From the NCBI GenBank assembly GCA_015178975.1, contig WHVD01000076.1, positions 62,001 to 126,000 of the forward strand: DNA of 64,000 bases, given 5' to 3'. Under the pieces are notes generated by a model. That model saw nothing but the letters and a program-made list of their open reading frames with translations, was not told the origin of the DNA and did not search any database. Positions 15,275-56,672 of this stretch are shown here, piece after piece. Made by a program: the position numbers and the translations under genes. How positions within the stretch are numbered: the first letter of the stretch is position 1; each line of letters begins with the position of its first letter. Source of the DNA: Hysterangium stoloniferum. Lineage: Eukaryota; Basidiomycota; Agaricomycetes; Hysterangiales; Hysterangiaceae.

Positions 15275-15285
15275 AGTCAGAAAAT
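15275..15285 (-). promoter_or_regulatory. Self-complementary primer-binding site of E1
   Basis: Reading in element sense, the 5' LTR ends CCTAACA, then come GT and ATTTTCTGACT. This 11-mer is the exact reverse complement of AGTCAGAAAAT inside the LTR (15612-15602). The match stops on both sides of the 11 bases. No TGG-type tRNA primer site is present here. In Tf1 (established) the first 11 nt of the mRNA anneal to the PBS and prime cDNA synthesis; the same is inferred here. Confidence 0.75.
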
Positions 15286-15287
15286 AC

Positions 15288-15888
15288 TGTTAGGATACAC
15301 ACACAGGGGGGGTCTCCGGAGAAACCTGCAGAATATCCGGTAGGACTTGCCTTCACCTTATACGCTGCACCCTCGCTAGATCGTGTTGTCCAATTTCGAA
15401 CAGGCGGACGGGAATCCCGGGGAGTCCGGGCAGGGTTCGTGGGTCGTAGGTCATAGGTTGGAGGTCATGGGTCGTGAGTCGAGATAGTTGAGAGAGATAG
15501 ATGTGCTGGAGCCCGTGGGCTCCGACTAGTGCGAGCGGTGTTAATCAAAGCAAGGTTTTAGAGCGGAAAATGGATTAGATTACTGGGGGGAATCTAAGCT
15601 AATTTTCTGACTGGATTGTATGTACAACATCTGCCAGTTTATATAGACCGTGGAGTGAATGACATACCAAATCCAGTAATGACGAAACAAAACTAACAAA
15701 ACATAAAACGGGAATAATAAACACCAAGTTTGGTGTTAGGAATGGGACAGAATGGAGCGGAGTCCGAATCATGACAAAGTGTAACCCATAATGGGAAATG
15801 GAGCAGGAGTGGAGTCCTAAATCGTGACAGGTCATTTGACTAAAATGGGAACGGGGCTCAATTAGAGCGGTGATGGGATTCTGAGTGG
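15288..15888 (-). repeat. 5' LTR of E1 (family A), truncated
   Basis: It aligns with 7440-8040 and stops abruptly at 15888 within GATTCTGAGTGGG, so about 200 nt of the start of the LTR in sense are missing. The 3' end of the LTR, the TATA-like box and the 11-mer AGTCAGAAAAT are retained. Promoter function of U3 is probably impaired. Confidence 0.85.
15602..15646 (-). promoter_or_regulatory. TATA-like box and predicted transcript start in the E1 5' LTR
   Basis: In sense CTATATAAACTGG is followed by AGTCAGAAAAT, with 33 nt between the first T of TATATAAA (15645) and the first A of the 11-mer (15612). That distance suits a pol II start at or next to the 11-mer. Family B shows the same 33-nt spacing. 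Confidence 0.65.
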
Positions 15889-29104: not shown

Positions 29105-30315
29105 AACTCTTTCAGAAATGCAGCATTACTGGAAAGAAACAATACCCAATAACAATGGGTGAATAGAGAGGCTAGTCAGAGTGTCACCAAAAGATATAAT
29201 GTGGTTTGGGTCAGGAATTGCAGAGGTTTACTGTCAGAGGCTCAAATTTGTTTCAAACTCCACACACTTTGAATAGTAATACTTAATTTACATAGTATAT
29301 GCTTTTTGAAAAGTGGCTAACTCTCCATTTCAAAAATTAAAACTGTATCTTAAAGTGAATTGACAGGTCCCCAAGTAGGAGGATAGCCCAAAACTTTAAA
29401 AGTTATTTATCCACTAAAGTATCTATATTTATATTGTTTATTGTAAAATTAATATTTAATCAAATTCAGTCTATCAGATGACATTCTGGAGAATAAGGAA
29501 ATATTAATATTTATCTTGTATCTGACAAAAGTTAGTCAAACAAACATATATTGGATTATCCTTTTGGGAATAAATTCCACAACAAGGATTGGTTGGCCAG
29601 ATAGTTCTGGTTAACTTTCTAAACCAAATAAATTTAAATTATATGAACTACATTTGAAAGTTTGCATAATATACTAGAGAATGCATCTCATCCCAAAGAT
29701 TCAGTCATAACCCAAATAATTTTGGTTAACTATAATGTTTGTGGACATTTTAAAAGTCACAGAGATACTAGAGAATGCATCTCATCCCAAAGATTAAGTC
29801 ATAACCCAAATAATTTTGGTTAACTATAATATTTGTGGACATTTTAAAAGTCACAGAGATACTAGAGAATGCATCTCATCCCAAAGATTAAGTCATAACC
29901 CAAATAATTTTGGTTAACCATGACATTTGTGCATATTTTAAAAGAGTATACAAGTTTTAAAGATGAAGTTTTGGGGTAATGAAATATAAACTCCTAAAAC
30001 ATATAGTCATAGCCAAAGGAAATAGTCTCACTTAAAAATATGAGGACCTTTCCATAAAATTTTGTATATTCAATGAAGTGTGACTATCCTCCATACATAT
30101 ATTCATGTATTATAAAGGTAGATGGAACAATAGATGTATTTTATGTTAATCACATGTGTTTTGAGGCATTTTGAGGTGTTTGTGACAGTCACAACACCCT
30201 GCATGCTACTTTCATAGACAACAGATTCCGAAGACCACATCTATTTTTAGGACAACAAAGGAATCATGTCACTTGACCAACTTCCCTTTGTTGCACCCTT
30301 TTCTTTGTTCTGCTG
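29105..30315. other. AT-rich region with a 94-bp triplicate; no gene
   Basis: No supported reading frame. Apart from the tandem repeats at 29671-29952 I see nothing I can assign. Confidence 0.5.
29671..29952. repeat. Three 94-bp tandem repeats
   Basis: Units start at 29671, 29765 and 29859 with ATACTAGAGAATGCATCTCA and contain CATAACCCAAATAATTTTGG. The first two copies are nearly identical and the third diverges towards its end. The low divergence points to a recent duplication. Confidence 0.85.
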
Positions 30316-30320
30316 CTTAT

Positions 30321-30860
30321 TGTTACGACCTGTTCCCGGATGTTTCAATATCCGACTTCCAACTTCCAACTACAGAATATCATAGTTACTGTATCTTCCA
30401 TATTCTTCCCTTGTTCCACATTTGGTAATTTGTCTGTTGACAAGTATTCACTCGTTTGTTTATTATATTCAGAATATTGTCTCCCCAATTCATCTGATTG
30501 TATTCCCATTTCAGAATACTTCCATTTCTGTCTTATTGTGGTCTTAGTTTGTAGTACAATAACAAGAAGACTTATATTAGTTTCCACAAATTTGTACTTT
30601 ACTTTAGATCTGATATTGACTTAGTTTCTTATTCCCTCTTCCATCTTTCTGTACGCTCGATATTTGGAACTCTTCAGAACTCTGAATATCTGTATCTTCC
30701 GGTGTAAGTCTCACCTTTAAAATTAAAAACTTCTGAGCATTTGCGTAGAGGTGCAGCACATAAGCTGAAGCCAACATCCTGACCCTATCTGATAGTTTCT
30801 GAATTCCCGGTGACTTTCTGATTGTTTTGGAATACATAAGTTCCAATACAGCACTTAACA
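30321..30860 (+). repeat. 5' LTR of E2 (family B, 540 bp)
   Basis: TGTTACGACCTG...GCACTTAACA. The part from about 30505 to the end is repeated at 35029-35389. It shares only its first bases and the GCAGCACATAAGCTGAAGCC motif (30753-30772) with family A. Confidence 0.85.
30573..30616 (+). promoter_or_regulatory. TATA-like box and predicted transcript start in the E2 LTR
   Basis: TATATTAG begins at 30573 and AGATCTGATAT at 30606, again 33 nt apart as in family A. The 11-mer is the reverse complement of the sequence behind the LTR. Confidence 0.6.
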
Positions 30861-30862
30861 GT

Positions 30863-30873
30863 ATATCAGATCT
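30863..30873 (+). promoter_or_regulatory. Self-complementary primer-binding site of E2
   Basis: Behind the LTR end CTTAACA come GT and ATATCAGATCT, the exact reverse complement of AGATCTGATAT at 30606-30616. The match ends after 11 bases on both sides. Position and length equal those in E1 although the sequence is unrelated. Confidence 0.75.
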
Positions 30874-30894: not shown

Positions 30895-32121
30895 ATGAGT
30901 CCCAAATGCAAAGCTGCCAAAGGACCATCTCAACTTCAATCCCCATTGCAACTTTATACCACCCAACCCAAAACACCAATTCAGCTGACAGCATCAGCTT
31001 CCAGCGAAGAAGTTACCAAGGTAGCAAAGGATCTCAATGCTCCCAACACTTCCAACAATGAAGTAGAAGAACAGCTGGTGACATCAAAAAAGAAATCTTC
31101 CAATGAACCAACTGAAATGTTGTTTGTCAACTCCATTGTGAAATTAGCTGACTATTTGAAATCTTCTGAGGAAAGCAAAGAATCATCCCACACCAGAGTT
31201 AAAGAACCCAAACCATTTACTGGCAAGGATCTGAAAAAATGGAAGAATTTCCTTCTCCAATGCCATTTCAGTTTCGGTGATTGACCCGCTGCATTTAAAT
31301 CTGACAGTCGAAAAGTAAATTTCACACTCTCTTATCTCAAGGATACCGCTCAGGATTGGTTTGAACCTGGACTATCCAGAATATCCAACAAGACACTCAT
31401 ATGGCTTGATGACTGGGACACATTTGTGGAAGAACTGGAAACTAATTTCAGACCTTACGATCAATCCGTGAAGCAGAAAATGAATTAATGATGCTTAAGA
31501 TGAAGGACAATCAACAAGTCTCCAATTATCTTGTCAAGTTCAATACCCTTGCCACACGATGTGGTTGGGATGATTCCACCCTCAGGCACCATTTCTATAT
31601 GGGACTTCTGTCATGCCTTAAAGACAAGATCTGCAAAGATGGGAAGCCGAAAACTCTCCATATCATGCAGATTAAAGCTTTTTAAAGCTCAGACATCTGA
31701 TGCCCATTATTGGGAACAAAAAGCCGAGGTCTCCCAAGAGAATCTGACAGAATGTTCTCAAAACAACAAGGTGTCAACTAGCAAGTCTTCTGGCAATAAC
31801 TCAGGCAATAACACCGGCAACTCTGGCACTAATACTGGCAAATCAAATCCTGATTGGAAAAAAGACAAGAAATCCAACAAGGAAAAACAGTCAACTTCCG
31901 ACAAACCTGACATTTCCCACTTGTTGGGTACCAACAGTAAACTCACCCCAAAGGAGAAACAACGACGCATGGATAACAATCTCTGCCTTTTCTGTGGGAA
32001 AGGCGGACACAAGGTTTCTGACTGTACCATTAAGTCTAACTCTTTTAAGGCCCATGTGGCAACTTCCACTACGACTACAACATCCAAGGCAAAACCCGCC
32101 ATGGAGTGGAAAAAAGAGTAA
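30895..32121 (+). pseudogene. E2 gag
   Basis: Starts MSPKCKAAKGPSQLQSP at 30895. A TGA at 31282-31284 (FGD-stop-PAAF) stands where E1 has Arg in HDRSAAF. Frame changes at about 31480-31690 separate the later parts. The capsid part (LMMLKMKDNQQVSNYLVKFN) and the CCHC knuckle CLFCGKGGHKVSDC are clear. It ends MEWKKE-stop on the same AAAAAAGAGTAAG string as E1 gag. Confidence 0.8.
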
Positions 32122-32732
32122 GCAACCCTCTGGAATCTGCATGGACAGAGGGTTGCATTAACTCTCTCCATGTTTCCGAGATTATCCATCTCAATGTGTC
32201 TGCTCTCTCTAATCCCAACTCACTATTTTTAAAACTCATCTCTGACCTTCTTGGAAATTTAGTGTTCCGAGCTCTGATAGATTCTGGCTCCACACACTGT
32301 TTTGTAGATACCACCTTTGCCATGAAACATAATCTGAAACTCCAATCTGTTCCCACAATTTCTTTGCATCTGTTTGATGGCACTAGCAATATGGCAATTA
32401 CTCAAGCCTGTGACATGTCTATCTGGTTCCTGTGTGGAACATCCCAGACGGTGACTGTTTTCATAACACAGTTGGACTCTAGCTGTTCGGTAGTTCTTGG
32501 ATACAACTGGCTCACCTGATATAATCCATTGATTGACTGGGTATTGGGCAGTATTAATTTCTGGATTCCTGACACTTCCATTCCTCCTGCAGCGTCTTTT
32601 CTGGCCAGAGCCTCTTCGGCCTTGTCGGCACTTCTGGCTTCTACCAAAACCTCCAAACCTCCGAAAATCTCTCTCATCAACACTTCAGCATTTGTTAGGG
32701 TGAGTAAACTGGACAGATCGCAGTGTTTTTGA
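32106..32732 (+). pseudogene. E2 protease
   Basis: In the -1 frame relative to gag the sequence reads EKRVSNPLESAWTEGC and then ALIDSGSTHCFVDTTF, the aspartic protease active site. A TGA at 32518-32520 interrupts it (NWLT-stop-YNPLIDW), and it continues to 32732 with a Pro/Ser/Ala linker. Confidence 0.8.
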
Positions 32733-34180
32733 TCAGCTTAAAAGTTGATAAAGCATCTGGACATTTTGCGACTCCAGAATTATCTGAGCTAAAAGCTGAC
32801 CTGGAAGGAGTTCCTGAAAAATACCATAATTTTGCAGATATTTTCAGTAAGCAAAAAGCTGACCAGCTTGCATTATGCAGGCCTTATGACTTAAAAATCG
32901 ATATTGAGCCTGGTCCAAAACCTCTGTTAGGACCTATTTACCCATTATCCCAATTGGAACTTTTGTCTATTCGGGAGTTCTTGGATGAACATCTGTTGAT
33001 AGGTTTTATCTGTCCCTCAAAGTCTCCGTATGGAGCACCCATCCTTTTCATCAAGAAGAAGGATGGTTCCCTTCAACTCTGTGTTGATTTCAGAGGATTA
33101 AATTCCATCATACAGAAAGATAAGTACCCACTTCCACTCATTATCAACTTACTCGATGCTCCACAGAAAGCTTGGATCTACACCAAAATAGACCTTAAAC
33201 ATGCCTATCATTTGGTCCAAATTGCTGAGGGCGATGAATGGAAAGCTGCTTTTCGGACTCACTATGGATCCTTTGAATGGTTGGTTATGCCATTTGGCCT
33301 TACCAATGCCCCTTCTGCTTTTCAACGTTTTGTTAATGATATATTTTCCGACATGCTTGACATATGTGTTATAGTCTATTTGGATGACATTTTGGTATTT
33401 TCCAAGGATCCCGCTCTTCATTATGAACAAGTCTGCAAAGTTTTCTGAAGACTCCGAAAAAATGGTCTTTTCACCAATGGTAAAAAATGCTATTTTGACA
33501 TGGATTCCATTGAATACTTAGGTTTCATTATCGGACCTGAGGGTCTCCATATGGATGAAACCAAGGTTCAAGTTGTCCGTGATTGGCCCAAACCATGGAA
33601 AGTCAAAGACATTCAGTCATTTTTAGGTTTTGCAAACTTCTACCATCATTTCATTCAGAACTACTCAGATATTACAATACCACTCACTTGCCTTACCCGT
33701 AAATCTCAACCATGGATTTTTGATGACAAATGCCGCTCTGCTTTCCAGACTTTAAAAAATGCTTTCACTTCCACCCTGATTCTTTCTCATTGGAAACTTG
33801 ATGTTCCGATTATTGTGGAAACCAATGCTTCCAATTATGCAATTACCGCGATTCTTTCCATTCAAGATTCCAATTCCAATGGTGAAATTCATCTGGTCGC
33901 ATTCCTTTCTTGGATACTTTCAGTGTCCAAACTCAACTATGACATTCATGATAAGGAACTTTTGGCAATCTTTGAAGCTTTCAAACATTGGTGTCATTAC
34001 CTCAAAGGTTCCGCAACTCCCATTGACATTGTTACTGATCACAAAAATCTCAACTATTTTTCTACCACTAAACTTTTGACCTGCTGGCAAGCCTACTGGT
34101 CCAAATTTCTCTCCATTTTCAACATGATTGTCCGTTTCCGACCCGGACATCTTGGTGGAAAACCAGATGCCCTGACTTGA
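32723..34180 (+). pseudogene. E2 reverse transcriptase and RNase H
   Basis: RT motifs: KKDGSLQLCVDFRGLNSI, FEWLVMPFGLTNAPSAFQ and an intact VYLDDILVFS. A TGA at 33446-33448 (KVF-stop-RLRK) stands where E1 has Arg (VLRRLRQ). RNase H follows (ETNASNYAITAIL, HDKELLAIFEAF); its first Asp is replaced by Asn (VETNAS against VEMDTS in E1). It ends DALT followed by two TGA codons (34178-34183) where E1 reads DALTRQWD. Confidence 0.85.
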
Positions 34181-34319: not shown

Positions 34320-35028
34320 TTATGATTATGGACATTGAGCAATTACATCAAGATATCCTTTCTGCACTCACTTCCGACCTGGCCCTCAAGCCACACCTAG
34401 AAGTTCCTGATAATTCCGACCAACCCTGATGCTCACAAGACTCTCAAGGTTTTATCCATCTCGATGGATATATCTACATTCCAGATTCCAATAATCTCCG
34501 ACTCCGTGTACTTCAGTACAAACACGATCATCCAATCTCTGGGCATTATGGCATTAACAATACTCTTGGTCTAATCCGAAGAGAATATACTTGGCCCAAC
34601 CTCCAAGATTTCATAACCCAGTTCTGTAAGTCATGCACCACCTGCTTACACTCTAAAAACATAAGCCGTACGGCCTTCTCAAGCAACTTCCAATACCGGA
34701 AAAACCCTGGAACTCAATTTCCATGGATTTTATCAAACAACTTCCAACTTCCAAAGGCTTTACATCCATCCTAGTTGTTGTGGATCAATTCTCGAAACAA
34801 GGAATTTTCATACCCACTCACGATACAATCACATCCTTACAATTAGCAGAACTTTTCATTATTCATGTATTTTCCAAACATGGTGTTCCATCTCACGTAA
34901 CTTCCGATCGAGGCTCCAAGTTCATCTCCCATTTCTTCCAGGCCCTCAGAAAAGCCTTCAACATGAAATTACACTTCACCTTGGGATATCATCTGGAAGG
35001 TGATGGACAAACGGAACATGTTAATCAA
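34320..35028 (+). pseudogene. E2 integrase fragment
   Basis: The linker reads IEQLHQDILSALTSDLALKP with a TGA at 34427. A zinc-finger region follows (HDHPISGHYGINNTL; FCKSCTTCL). The core from 34723 has DFIKQLPTSKGFTSILVVVD and VTSDRGSKFISHFF with both Asp residues. It ends at DGQTEHVNQT, where it is joined to LTR sequence at about 35028. The catalytic Glu is just retained, while the rest of the domain and the chromodomain are lost. Confidence 0.8.
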
Positions 35029-35389
35029 ACATCCCATTTCAGAATACTTCCATTTCCATCTTATTGTGGTCTTAGTTTGTAGTACAATAACGAGAAGACT
35101 TATATTAGTTTCCATGAATTTGTACTTTACTTTAGATCTGATATTGACTTAGTTTCTTATTCCCTCTTCCATCTTTCTGTACACTTGGTATTCTGAACTC
35201 TTCGGAACTCTGAATATCTGTATCTTCCAGCATAAGTCTCACCTTTGAAATTAAGGACTTCTGAGCATTTGTGTAGAGGTGCAGCACATAAGCTGAAGCC
35301 AACATCCTGACCCTATCTGATAGTTTCCAAATTCCTGGTGACTTTCTGATAGTTCTGGAATACAGTAAGTTCCAACACGGCGCTTAACA
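35029..35389 (+). repeat. 3' LTR of E2, 5'-truncated
   Basis: It corresponds to 30505-30860 of the 5' LTR. The breakpoint lies at CATCCCATTTCAG. The CTTAACA end and the following CTTAT target duplication are intact. Confidence 0.85.
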
Positions 35390-35718
35390 CTTATTGTTCT
35401 AACTATCTCATTGTTCTACCAAAGATATATAAGCAGTAGATAATAGTTTACTTTACATCAGTCTGTTATACTTCTTATATGAGACTGAGGTAAGCTTTCT
35501 TTTAGTATATATGGTATGCTTTATTCATGTATTTTATAGATGTTTTAGGTACTTAACATAGTCCATTATACTTCTTATACAAGACTGAGATGTTTTAGGG
35601 TCTTGATTTTTAACACCCCATACACCTGGGATGAGCTCTTACACTGTACTCAAGGATATAACCTCAAGTGCCTGTTCCTATTAGCTTATATACACATTGA
35701 ACTCAGAGCTGTAGAGAG

Positions 35719-39775: not shown

Positions 39776-40962
39776 ATGCCTTTCTCTTTCCAAATACTTA
39801 TCCACTTCCTTTGCGAAACGAAATCTAGTGACAGCGGGCTGGGAATCAAATTACTTTTCGAGCCTCCGGGGGAAGTCACCCCCACTGTTGAGTAAGTATT
39901 ACACAATGACATGTCCTAATCTCAAATAATATATCTATATTCCTTGCAGCATTGTCGCCATCCATGGATTGGACGGACACCGTGAAAAGACATGAACAGC
40001 TAACAACGGCAAATGTTGGCTACGTGATTTTTTACCGGAAAAGATCCCAAGCGGGAGGATTTTAACGTATGGTTATGATACCAAGTCGTGGGGTTGGGGT
40101 AGAAGATCACAGCAGCTGTTGTACGACCATGGGCAGGATTTCGTTTCGCGGCTTGTCTCGTTCAGGACCAATACAAACACTACTGTCCGTCGTTTTTTCT
40201 CTGTACAACGTTTGTACATCGTAAATTCAGCACTTATGTGTGCCGTATTAGGAGCGCCCAATTATTTTCGTTGCACATAGCCTCGGAGGGATAGTTCTGA
40301 AATATGTGAGTACTGGCTATCGAAGTCATCCAAAAATCAACCAACAATGAAGGTTATTTCCAGGCACTTTTGCATTCCAGGACGACACATGAAACCCATT
40401 TATTCAGTCATAGACAGCTCCACACATCTACGTATGGCATCATATTCCTTGGTACCCCACATCAAGGCACCACCTTTGCAGACATGGCTAGTAAACTGCT
40501 TACATTCAGTGTCGTATCGCTTTTCATGAATCCTAACATGAAGATATTAAAACATCTACTTGCGAACTCAGAGACCTTGCAGGACCAAATATCTGAGTAC
40601 ACGTCCATCAGTAGTGATTTTGTCACGAAGTTTTGCTACGAGCTCTATCAAATGCGCTTTTGTGGGCTACATGCGCTGGTCAGCATACGGTTATTCATGG
40701 TCTGATATAATTTTCAAAATTTTTATGATTCTCAGATTGTTCCAAAAGAAACTGCCGTAGTGCCTGGTGCCGTTAATGCTGAGCCACTAGGTATACATGC
40801 AGATCATGTGGAAATGACTAAATTTCCTTCAAACGATGTGGATGACTTTATTCAGATTTCTCAGTGGTTAGAGGGTATGGTGGCGGAGGCACCTCCCAAG
40901 ATAGAATCCAATTGGGCAGTGTTCAGACCCACTCTTACTCCTTTGGATTCTGGAAGTTTATA
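39776..40962 (+). pseudogene. H1: SERAC1/SesB-like alpha/beta hydrolase gene with a nonsense codon
   Basis: Serine hydrolase of the lipase-like type that also serves as an N-terminal domain of fungal NLR proteins (family knowledge; role here unknown). Exons: 39776-39891, 39950-40184, 40252-40305, 40364 to about 40680, 40736 to 40962 or slightly less. Exons 1 and 3 (116 and 54 nt) have the same lengths as in the paralog H2. Motifs: IVAIHGLDGH (oxyanion region), FVAHSLGGIVLKY (nucleophile Ser), STYGIIFLGTPHQGTT and GIHADHVEMTKF (catalytic His). TGA at 39993-39995 stands exactly where H2 has the Trp of NSWTTDD, so the protein should stop after about 53 residues. Everything downstream remains open, so the stop may be recent, or a sequencing error. 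Confidence 0.75.
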
Positions 40963-54293: not shown

Positions 54294-55734
54294 ATGAAGA
54301 GTAAGATAAAGCGATACTCAAAAATGGAATATGTAGGATCTTGGCTGCCGCTCTTCCTAAACTCTATGGTGCTGGTTTTTGTATAACTGTCCCTACCACC
54401 TTTGTACATGTATTTACGACCAGAATAAAAATATTTTAACACCGCCCATAGCTCAGCTCACGGCAAGGAGTACATTGTGCAGAGCATGCCTCAAATGGAA
54501 ATCAGACATATGAGTTCTTGCAGCTCACTTACTGAATTCCCAGAAATTCAACACATGGCCTGACCTCCTCTGAAGTTGTTGACTTTGTTGAAGCAGAGGG
54601 GAGGGTATAAGTCAGTACATGGTGGATGTGAACAACCACATTATCTATTACTAAGCTATTGTACAGGACTAATATTAAGTTCTGGTTCTCTGGGTGGAAT
54701 TTCCAGTGGATATTGCAGACTCTGTCCACAGAGTTCTGGAAAATTAGTCTGGAAACTTCCAGGGATTAGTCTGGGGAGTATTGTAATATTACCAGAGTAC
54801 AGGATGGACTTGGCTTCAGCTTATGTGCTGCCTTGTGCACTCACTTGGGTGTCCATATTTCAGAGGGTGGATATATGGTGGAGTGTTTATACATAGATAC
54901 TTGGAGTTCTGGAGAGTTCTGGATATCTGGAGTCTGGAGAGTTCCAGATATTGAGTGTACAGAAAGAACAAAGGAGCAGATTAGATCAAGACTAATGCAA
55001 GATACATACTAACTAATTTGAGATTAAAAACTGAGGAGTAAGTACATGACTATGGAAGACTATATAGATTTTCCAATAATTTTACTACAAGTCTGGGAGT
55101 ATAATAAGACCTATTTGGAATTGTTTCAAACTAAGCATATAATAACAAGTCAGATAAATGAGGAAACAAGGATGAGGACAGATCATGTTAGGACAACACT
55201 AACAAGGCTACCAAAACACAAAAAGAAACAAGAGAGAGAGGGCAAGATAAGGAGTAGGAGAATAGAAATTCTAATAACTTAAGAATGTCACACTTGCATT
55301 TAGTGTTAGAGTATGATATTACAGCTCTCACATAGTCTATGATGTTCCCTATATTTTTCTGATATTTGTAGTATTTTTCCCAGCACTGTAGGTGCAGTAT
55401 TGAGTGAGTTACCTAGTAAGGTAACTGATGTGTAGGTGCTTAGGTAAGCACCCTGTAGCATACTCCACTGTGGGTGTGGGAAAGTCTCCTTAGTGTTTAC
55501 TTTCCTCACACTCACAGGGTGTTTGTCAAGAGTTATTCAACTGTTTCAACATTTAGTGGAAATCCTAAGAGATTGAAACTGGGGTCTAACTATGTACATC
55601 TTAGGGTATTTACATATACTAAAGGGAAAATTAAATAAAGTTAAGTTTTACATTTGACATGTGTATGTCACATGATCATCATGTGATTGTCATTGTGTGG
55701 CCAAGGCATTTTGCATTTGCATGACATCACACGC
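54294..55734. other. Spacer containing an LTR-like remnant
   Basis: No gene is supported. The sequence at 54806-54832 carries the shared LTR motif (GGACTT, then GGCTTCAGCTTATGTGCTGC), in the orientation of a minus-strand element. Nearby TTCTGGA/GTTCCAG repeats also look LTR-like, but I cannot set ends. Confidence 0.45.
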
Positions 55735-56352: not shown

Positions 56353-56576
56353 TGTAAGGGTTCTGCCATGAAGAGGTAGCGTAATCCCTCAGAGAGCTCT
56401 TGCAAAAGGGAACGAAATGAGTAGGACTAGGTTCCTATTCGTAAGAGACTATTGTAACCATACAAGATATCTACCTATTTATGATAATAGTAGTAGAGCC
56501 CCGGGCAACCAGTCAAAAACCCCGTGAAACAAACACAATAGTATTCTAAGACACCTCCGGTCATACGGGCCCAACA
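56353..56576 (-). repeat. Probable 3' LTR of E4 (224 bp)
   Basis: In sense TGTTGGGCCCGT...GAACCCTTACA, with TG...CA ends and a TATA-like ATAAATAGG. It lies directly behind the integrase frame and abuts the broken family A LTR. The second copy is not in the window, so the length is a prediction. Confidence 0.5.
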
Positions 56577-56672
56577 GCCCGATGCCAAGTCCTCCCTAAC
56601 CCAAGTCCGCTACCGTTACACCCGCCCTCCCACACTGCCAGCAAGGCAATGTGCAACTCTCGGCGGACTGAC

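Follow-up and report, generated by a model that had tools for sequence, protein, structure and literature searches.

The E2 element in the window (the whole stretch of 64,000 nucleotides that was analysed) is very probably a decayed LTR retrotransposon of the Ty3/gypsy type whose family primed its own reverse transcription as Tf1 does. A word of 11 nt inside its 5′ LTR is the exact complement of the primer binding site (PBS) two bases behind that LTR, and in the genome from which the window comes this pairing at the LTR edge is retained by seven families, which between them use six primer words.

The 5′ LTR of E2 (30321..30860, plus strand, 540 nt, TGTTACGACC...CACTTAACA) is delimited by its TG..CA ends, by the direct repeat D5 and by a 5-bp target site duplication. 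This duplication, CTTAT, was read from the sequence and flanks at 30316..30320 on the left and at 35390-35394 on the right (plus strand). The TATA box TATATT (30573..30578, plus strand) stands 33 nt ahead of the self-primer AGATCTGATAT (30606..30616, plus strand), an exact complement of the PBS that is predicted to form the 11-nt start of the transcript. The LTR terminates with ..TTAACA, the CA being positions 30859-30860, and is followed by the spacer GT (30861..30862) and the PBS ATATCAGATCT (30863..30873), both read directly on the plus strand. The placement of TATATT, primer word, GT and PBS given in the initial annotation was confirmed by direct reading of the coordinates.

Behind the PBS, still on the plus strand, the ORF list shows a gag-like region at 30895..32121 with stops and frameshifts inside, in which a CCHC knuckle was recognised by eye near 32000. 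It is followed by pieces of a reverse transcriptase (RT; 32708..33445, PF00078, Pfam 1.9e-27), an RNase H (33449..34177, Pfam PF17919 and PF17917) and an integrase core (34657..35010, PF00665, Pfam and ORF list). According to Pfam these pieces are in the Ty3 order, and the best solved match of the RT is the Ty3 RT. The integrase frame enters, by the ORF list, the remnant of the 3′ LTR (35032..35389, plus strand), which is recognised by repeat D5, is missing roughly 183 nt at its start and contains another copy of AGATCTGATAT (35134-35144). Repeat D5 gives an identity of 93% between the two LTRs over 300 nt. This copy is dead, with gag and pol in short broken frames, and its integrase is cut off where a chromodomain was looked for. 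Just upstream of E2, a tandem array of three 94-bp units occupies window positions 29671-29952.

The same arrangement is found on the minus strand in element E1, where sequence reading and a window scan place the self-primer AGTCAGAAAAT at 15602..15612, 33 nt behind TATATA, and the PBS ATTTTCTGACT at 15275..15285, after ..CCTAACA and then GT. In the pol of E1 the Pfam pieces follow each other in the order RT, RNase H, integrase, and Pfam also detects SH3_Tf2-1 and a chromodomain (PF00385). The check for a Ty3/gypsy-type pol gave Ty3 as the best solved matches. Among the 120 integrase homologues listed for E1, the few that carry a species name belong to Trametes, Paxillus, Cyclocybe and Pisolithus, all genera of Agaricomycetes, which makes an Agaricomycete the most likely host. 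No relative of the E1 RT was found among the viral contigs searched, nor a match of the E2 RT DNA among the plasmid records searched. An E1-type LTR in plus orientation is also present at 24.6-25.2 kb of the window.

The initial annotation had claimed that E1 and E2 share their geometry while their words are unrelated. In both elements the complementarity is exactly 11, with the next base on each side unpaired, and the distance from TATA to primer word is 33 nt from first base to first base. The words do differ, but they carry the same base at 5 of the 11 positions, so that ‘unrelated’ is slightly overstated. The spacing and the spacer, given there as common to E1 and E2, are constant in part of the families described below. 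The 33-nt distance is exact in E1, E2, C and D, and TATATT occupies the TATA-box place in 30 of the 32 E2-family rows, but E, E′, F and G have no clear TATA at that distance. Likewise, GT is the spacer of E1, E2 and most C copies, whereas D to G have GA, GC or GT. Exceptions are AT in one C copy (L047) and the six bases GTAAGT in one E2 copy (L008), where GT is the end of the longer spacer; GT directly precedes the PBS in 32/32 E2-family rows.

The chance expectation of such a match is small. Of 4000 dinucleotide shuffles of the E2 LTR, one contained a complement to the E2 11-mer, and the corresponding counts were 1 for E1, 0 for C, 3 for D and 2 for E in 4000 shuffles, which accept a complement anywhere while the real words hold a fixed place. 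Among the 15,973,389 pairs of 11-mers that the plus strand of the window offers at distances of 100-350 nt, 16 match as exact complements, a rate of about 1e-6. When the 270 TATAWW sites on both strands were scanned for an 11-mer at +33 with a complement after CA plus 2 nt (CANN), sought within 450 nt, two sites were returned, and these are E2 and E1. With the TATA condition dropped, complements of 11 nt behind CANN were listed in five rows, E1 and E2 among them. The other three are TATA-less: two of them are a single inverted repeat scored once per strand, and the third lies at 39814/40138. Relaxed scans also listed complements of 10-22 nt away from LTR edges (for example in L035, L061, L066, L088 and L094), so that complementarity without position is weak evidence.

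For comparison between families, the 111-Mb assembly containing the window was searched with the E2 LTR, the E2 RT, RVT_1, SH3_Tf2-1, the E3 protein, the E1 RT and the D RT as queries. Loci were picked by hand: 20 of at least 150 E2 RT matches, 17 of the RVT_1 and SH3_Tf2-1 matches, 3 of the E1 RT matches, 20 of at least 123 D RT matches and 5 of at least 56 E3 matches. For want of a usable 5′ end, 14 of 30 E2 LTR loci were set aside (solo LTRs or cut), and none of the 20 loci picked by E2 RT. Also set aside were 6 of the 20 loci picked by RVT_1, SH3_Tf2-1 or E1 RT (L053, L061-L064 and L066) and, from the places picked by D RT, 7 of the 18 regions that exist in the assembly (L086, L088, L092-L096), the other two of the 20 being absent from it. 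In L088 the PBS is present and the LTR is cut; in L092 the LTR is present and the PBS lies beyond the stretch. L042 and L003 are one locus and entered the counts a single time. The 32 E2 rows, in which one place is listed twice, represent 31 distinct copies.

All 61 recovered 5′ ends pair at 9 or more of the 11 positions, and 42 of them at all 11. The E2 family contributes 31 distinct 5′ ends, 28 exact and three with one mismatch. Since the query of the E2 LTR search included the PBS, the copies picked by RT similarity alone are of separate interest; 15 of these 16 are exact. E1 is represented by six 5′ ends including the window copy, five exact and one (L068) with a single mismatch, and family C, with the words AATCAGAATAT/ATATTCTGATT, by six, of which five are exact and L046 has one mismatch. 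Both 5′ ends of D (AGTTTCAATCT/AGATTGAAACT) and both of G (TATCCTTTTCT/AGAAAAGGATA) pair exactly. Pairing is 10/11 in the six 5′ ends of family E (TAGACTTTTCT/AGAAAAGTCTC) and in the three of family F (TATCCTTTTCT/AGAAAAGGATT). The five E′ ends have the same words as E, four pairing at 10/11 and L087 at 9/11. Five copies of E2, E1 and C (L005, L025, L038, L068 and L046) carry a one-sided, uncompensated mismatch, which is expected of dead copies.

Two observations concern the surroundings of these words. Behind the family E primer word of L054 and L056, a 20-nt direct repeat, CTTCGGATTCCCTCTGCTAG, flanks some 45-50 nt that start with GTAAGT, a possible leader intron. In the window, the D primer word AGTTTCAATCT occurs at 55570-55580 on the minus strand, about 30 nt after agtatatgtaaata, and this place is perhaps a D-type LTR.

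The initial annotation had proposed that covariation of the two words would reveal a functional RNA-RNA primer duplex. Run within this genome, the comparison shows that primer and PBS words covary strongly, and the proposal is supported across seven families. In the seven family rows, 97.4% of the cells are paired versus 60.0% in shuffles, and both sides have changed in 10 of the 11 pairs, a number matched by 1 of 500 shuffles. The covariation score amounts to 0.987, whereas shuffled rows average 0.253 (sd 0.066) and none of 500 attains the observed value, although these shuffles do not give a strict probability because the families are related. Sliding the partner by one base lowers pairing to 47-49%, and the picture is unchanged with five rows, without F and G. 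The point is made best by neighbouring families with paired double substitutions: between E1 and C, two primer positions have changed together with their partners in the PBS, and likewise between E and F. The independent evidence lies in families rather than in copies, since copies within a family are close kin and some are nearly identical.

Within the E2 family both words are strongly constrained. Over an alignment that begins ahead of the TATA box and ends behind the PBS, the 31 copies show a mean variation of 6.9% per column, compared with 0.6% in the primer, 0.3% in the PBS, 0.3% in TATATTAGTTT and zero in the PBS edge TTAACAGTATATCAGAT. Only 12 of 338 stretches of 11 nt vary less than the primer. 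As the copies were found in part through these words, the low values of both are somewhat favoured. Further alignments use 24 of the 31 copies, and the seven omitted include the three with a mismatch, so that the invariant primer columns are there partly by choice; the 32-row table covers every E2 copy. Among the least variable stretches of the 31 copies is also ATAAGCTGAAG. A U5 block around GCAGCACATAAGCTGAAGCCAA (window 30744-30780, plus strand) is common to E1, E2 and C with changes, while their primers differ, and it is possibly an RNA signal or a polyadenylation region. Judged by eye in the 24-copy alignment, most differences between E2 copies are transitions of the C/T or G/A kind and many fall at CpG, which suggests decay by cytosine methylation.

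Folds were predicted for one RNA sequence each of E1, E2, C, E and D, beginning with the primer and ending 60 nt behind the PBS. The mean primer-PBS pair probabilities were 0.96 for E1, 0.94 for E2, 0.94 for C and 0.88 for E, a helix that is in part a consequence of the complementarity itself. In the D sequence, primer and PBS are unpaired in the predicted fold (mean probability 0.16). The E2 leader folds better than its shuffles (z -3.1). Duplexes flanking the primer helix, known as the ‘pretzel’ of Tf1, were not found in a convincing form when duplex energies of 11 sequences were compared with shuffles in 22 tests. The shuffle fraction was 0.02 once (E2, 5′ side) and otherwise at least 0.11; long-range pseudoknots are outside the model.

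The RT sequences divide the families into two lineages. Identity is 71-80% among E1, E2 and C and 68-69% between D and E, versus 45-50% between these two groups; the F and G matches are 68-70% identical to the D RT. E3, a distant Ty3-type element, and one relative have RTs that are 27-34% identical to those of E1, E2, C, D and E. None of the five E3 loci examined showed pairing at the LTR edge, and the complements listed in two of them (L072 and L073) fall elsewhere. In L071-L075 the E3-type LTR, TGTAACGG...CTTACA, is followed by CTTTTTGAGTA, which has no TGG start and for which the scans found no complement in the LTR. The E3 LTR of the window lies at 56354-56620 on the minus strand. At 55.9-56.35 kb, E1-type LTR sequence in plus orientation adjoins the E3 3′ LTR; E3 has probably inserted into an LTR of the E1 family, whose far side falls outside the window.

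In view of the above, self-priming of the Tf1 type is with high confidence the best explanation of the paired words, and it suggests the following course of events. In E2 the TATA box would place the transcript start 33 nt downstream, on the initial A of AGATCTGATAT, which would make the primer word the 5′ end of the RNA. The TATA 33 nt ahead in E1, E2, C and D fits a start at the first primer base. The RNA 5′ end is predicted to fold back onto the PBS, two bases behind the LTR, with all 11 bases paired. By analogy with Tf1, in which the first 11 bases of the RNA pair with the PBS as primer (PMC7175516) and RNase H frees the primer between bases 11 and 12 (PMC7175516, PMC4600332), the RNase H of the element could cut after nucleotide 11, or after nucleotide 10 in E and F. 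The freed 3′ end would then be extended into minus-strand DNA, again as in Tf1. Copying would leave the cDNA end with the two bases that separate CA from the PBS, and integrase would presumably trim them.

Other explanations of the paired words should be considered. A chance match, or a by-product of A/T-rich sequence, could draw on the 16 exact inverted repeats of 11 nt that the plus strand of the window holds at 100-350 nt, and on the further complements off LTR edges that relaxed scans of the genomic stretches returned. The rate is, however, about 1e-6 per pair, both TATA-anchored matches are LTR/PBS edges, and with 61 of 61 5′ ends in seven families pairing at the edge, and covarying, chance is extremely improbable. 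The words could also act at the DNA level, as an inverted repeat forming half-sites for a transcription factor or integrase instead of an RNA duplex. DNA and RNA pairing are indistinguishable from sequence alone, and AGATCT within the E2 word is palindromic. Yet the words change while complementarity and position stay (LTR end +2, and TATA +33 in four families), which is unlike the behaviour of a sequence-specific protein, and the places fit a transcript 5′ end and a PBS. A DNA-level role is therefore considered very unlikely.

A PBS for an ordinary tRNA was rejected because in all seven family rows the site starts with letters other than TGG, the start that would match the 3′-CCA end of a tRNA. 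A variant of this option is that a tRNA primes reverse transcription, as in many LTR elements, and that the LTR match serves another role such as circularisation or dimerisation of the RNA. It meets the same lack of a TGG-starting PBS in the seven rows, and use of an internal tRNA segment as primer would not make the LTR word change together with the PBS, leaving very little likelihood for this scenario. It is a tentative and rather doubtful proposal that self-priming spans two RT lineages that are only 45-50% identical, has been re-worded repeatedly by paired double substitutions, has primers of 10 nt within part of one lineage and dispenses with the pretzel, as a leaner version that needs only primer, two-base spacer and PBS.

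The closest known systems are Tf1 and Tf2 of Schizosaccharomyces pombe, in which the word at the RNA start is likewise complementary to a PBS behind the 5′ LTR (PMC7175516) and which also have a Ty3/gypsy-type pol with a chromodomain, here seen in E1. In contrast to Tf1/Tf2, the families described here have other primer words, E, E′ and F pair 10 instead of 11 bases, and convincing counterparts of the pretzel duplexes, described for Tf1 in PMC10085805, are lacking. A predicted 5′ LTR self-primer complementary to the PBS is also found in Tj1 of S. japonicus, Tosmo1-3 and Tcry1, but these are fission yeast elements for which a pretzel is reported (PMC4600332, PMC10085805). Tcn1 of Cryptococcus neoformans is, like the present elements, a Ty3/gypsy element of a basidiomycete for which self-priming was proposed (PMC7175516); its host belongs to another fungal class, and the likeness is one of description. 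Self-priming was also predicted for Tcn1-clade elements of non-seed plants and for TAR-lineage copia elements, which differ in being plant elements and, for TAR, of the Ty1/copia type (PMC6317226). For SM-Tcn1 of Selaginella, a search for signs of self-priming is reported to have yielded none (PMC2864245).

An earlier description of these families was not met in the accessible text of the open literature searched, subscription papers being outside the search. Elements of this kind would have a PBS that is blank to tRNA-type site searches, and the arrangement provides an annotation rule for self-primed elements. It also offers a natural covariation test of Tf1-type self-priming within one genome, independent of the yeast experiments. 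The mechanism is already published for Tf1 and its relatives, and the families described here are a further case, extending the self-priming arrangement to several abundant families of what is probably an Agaricomycete host.
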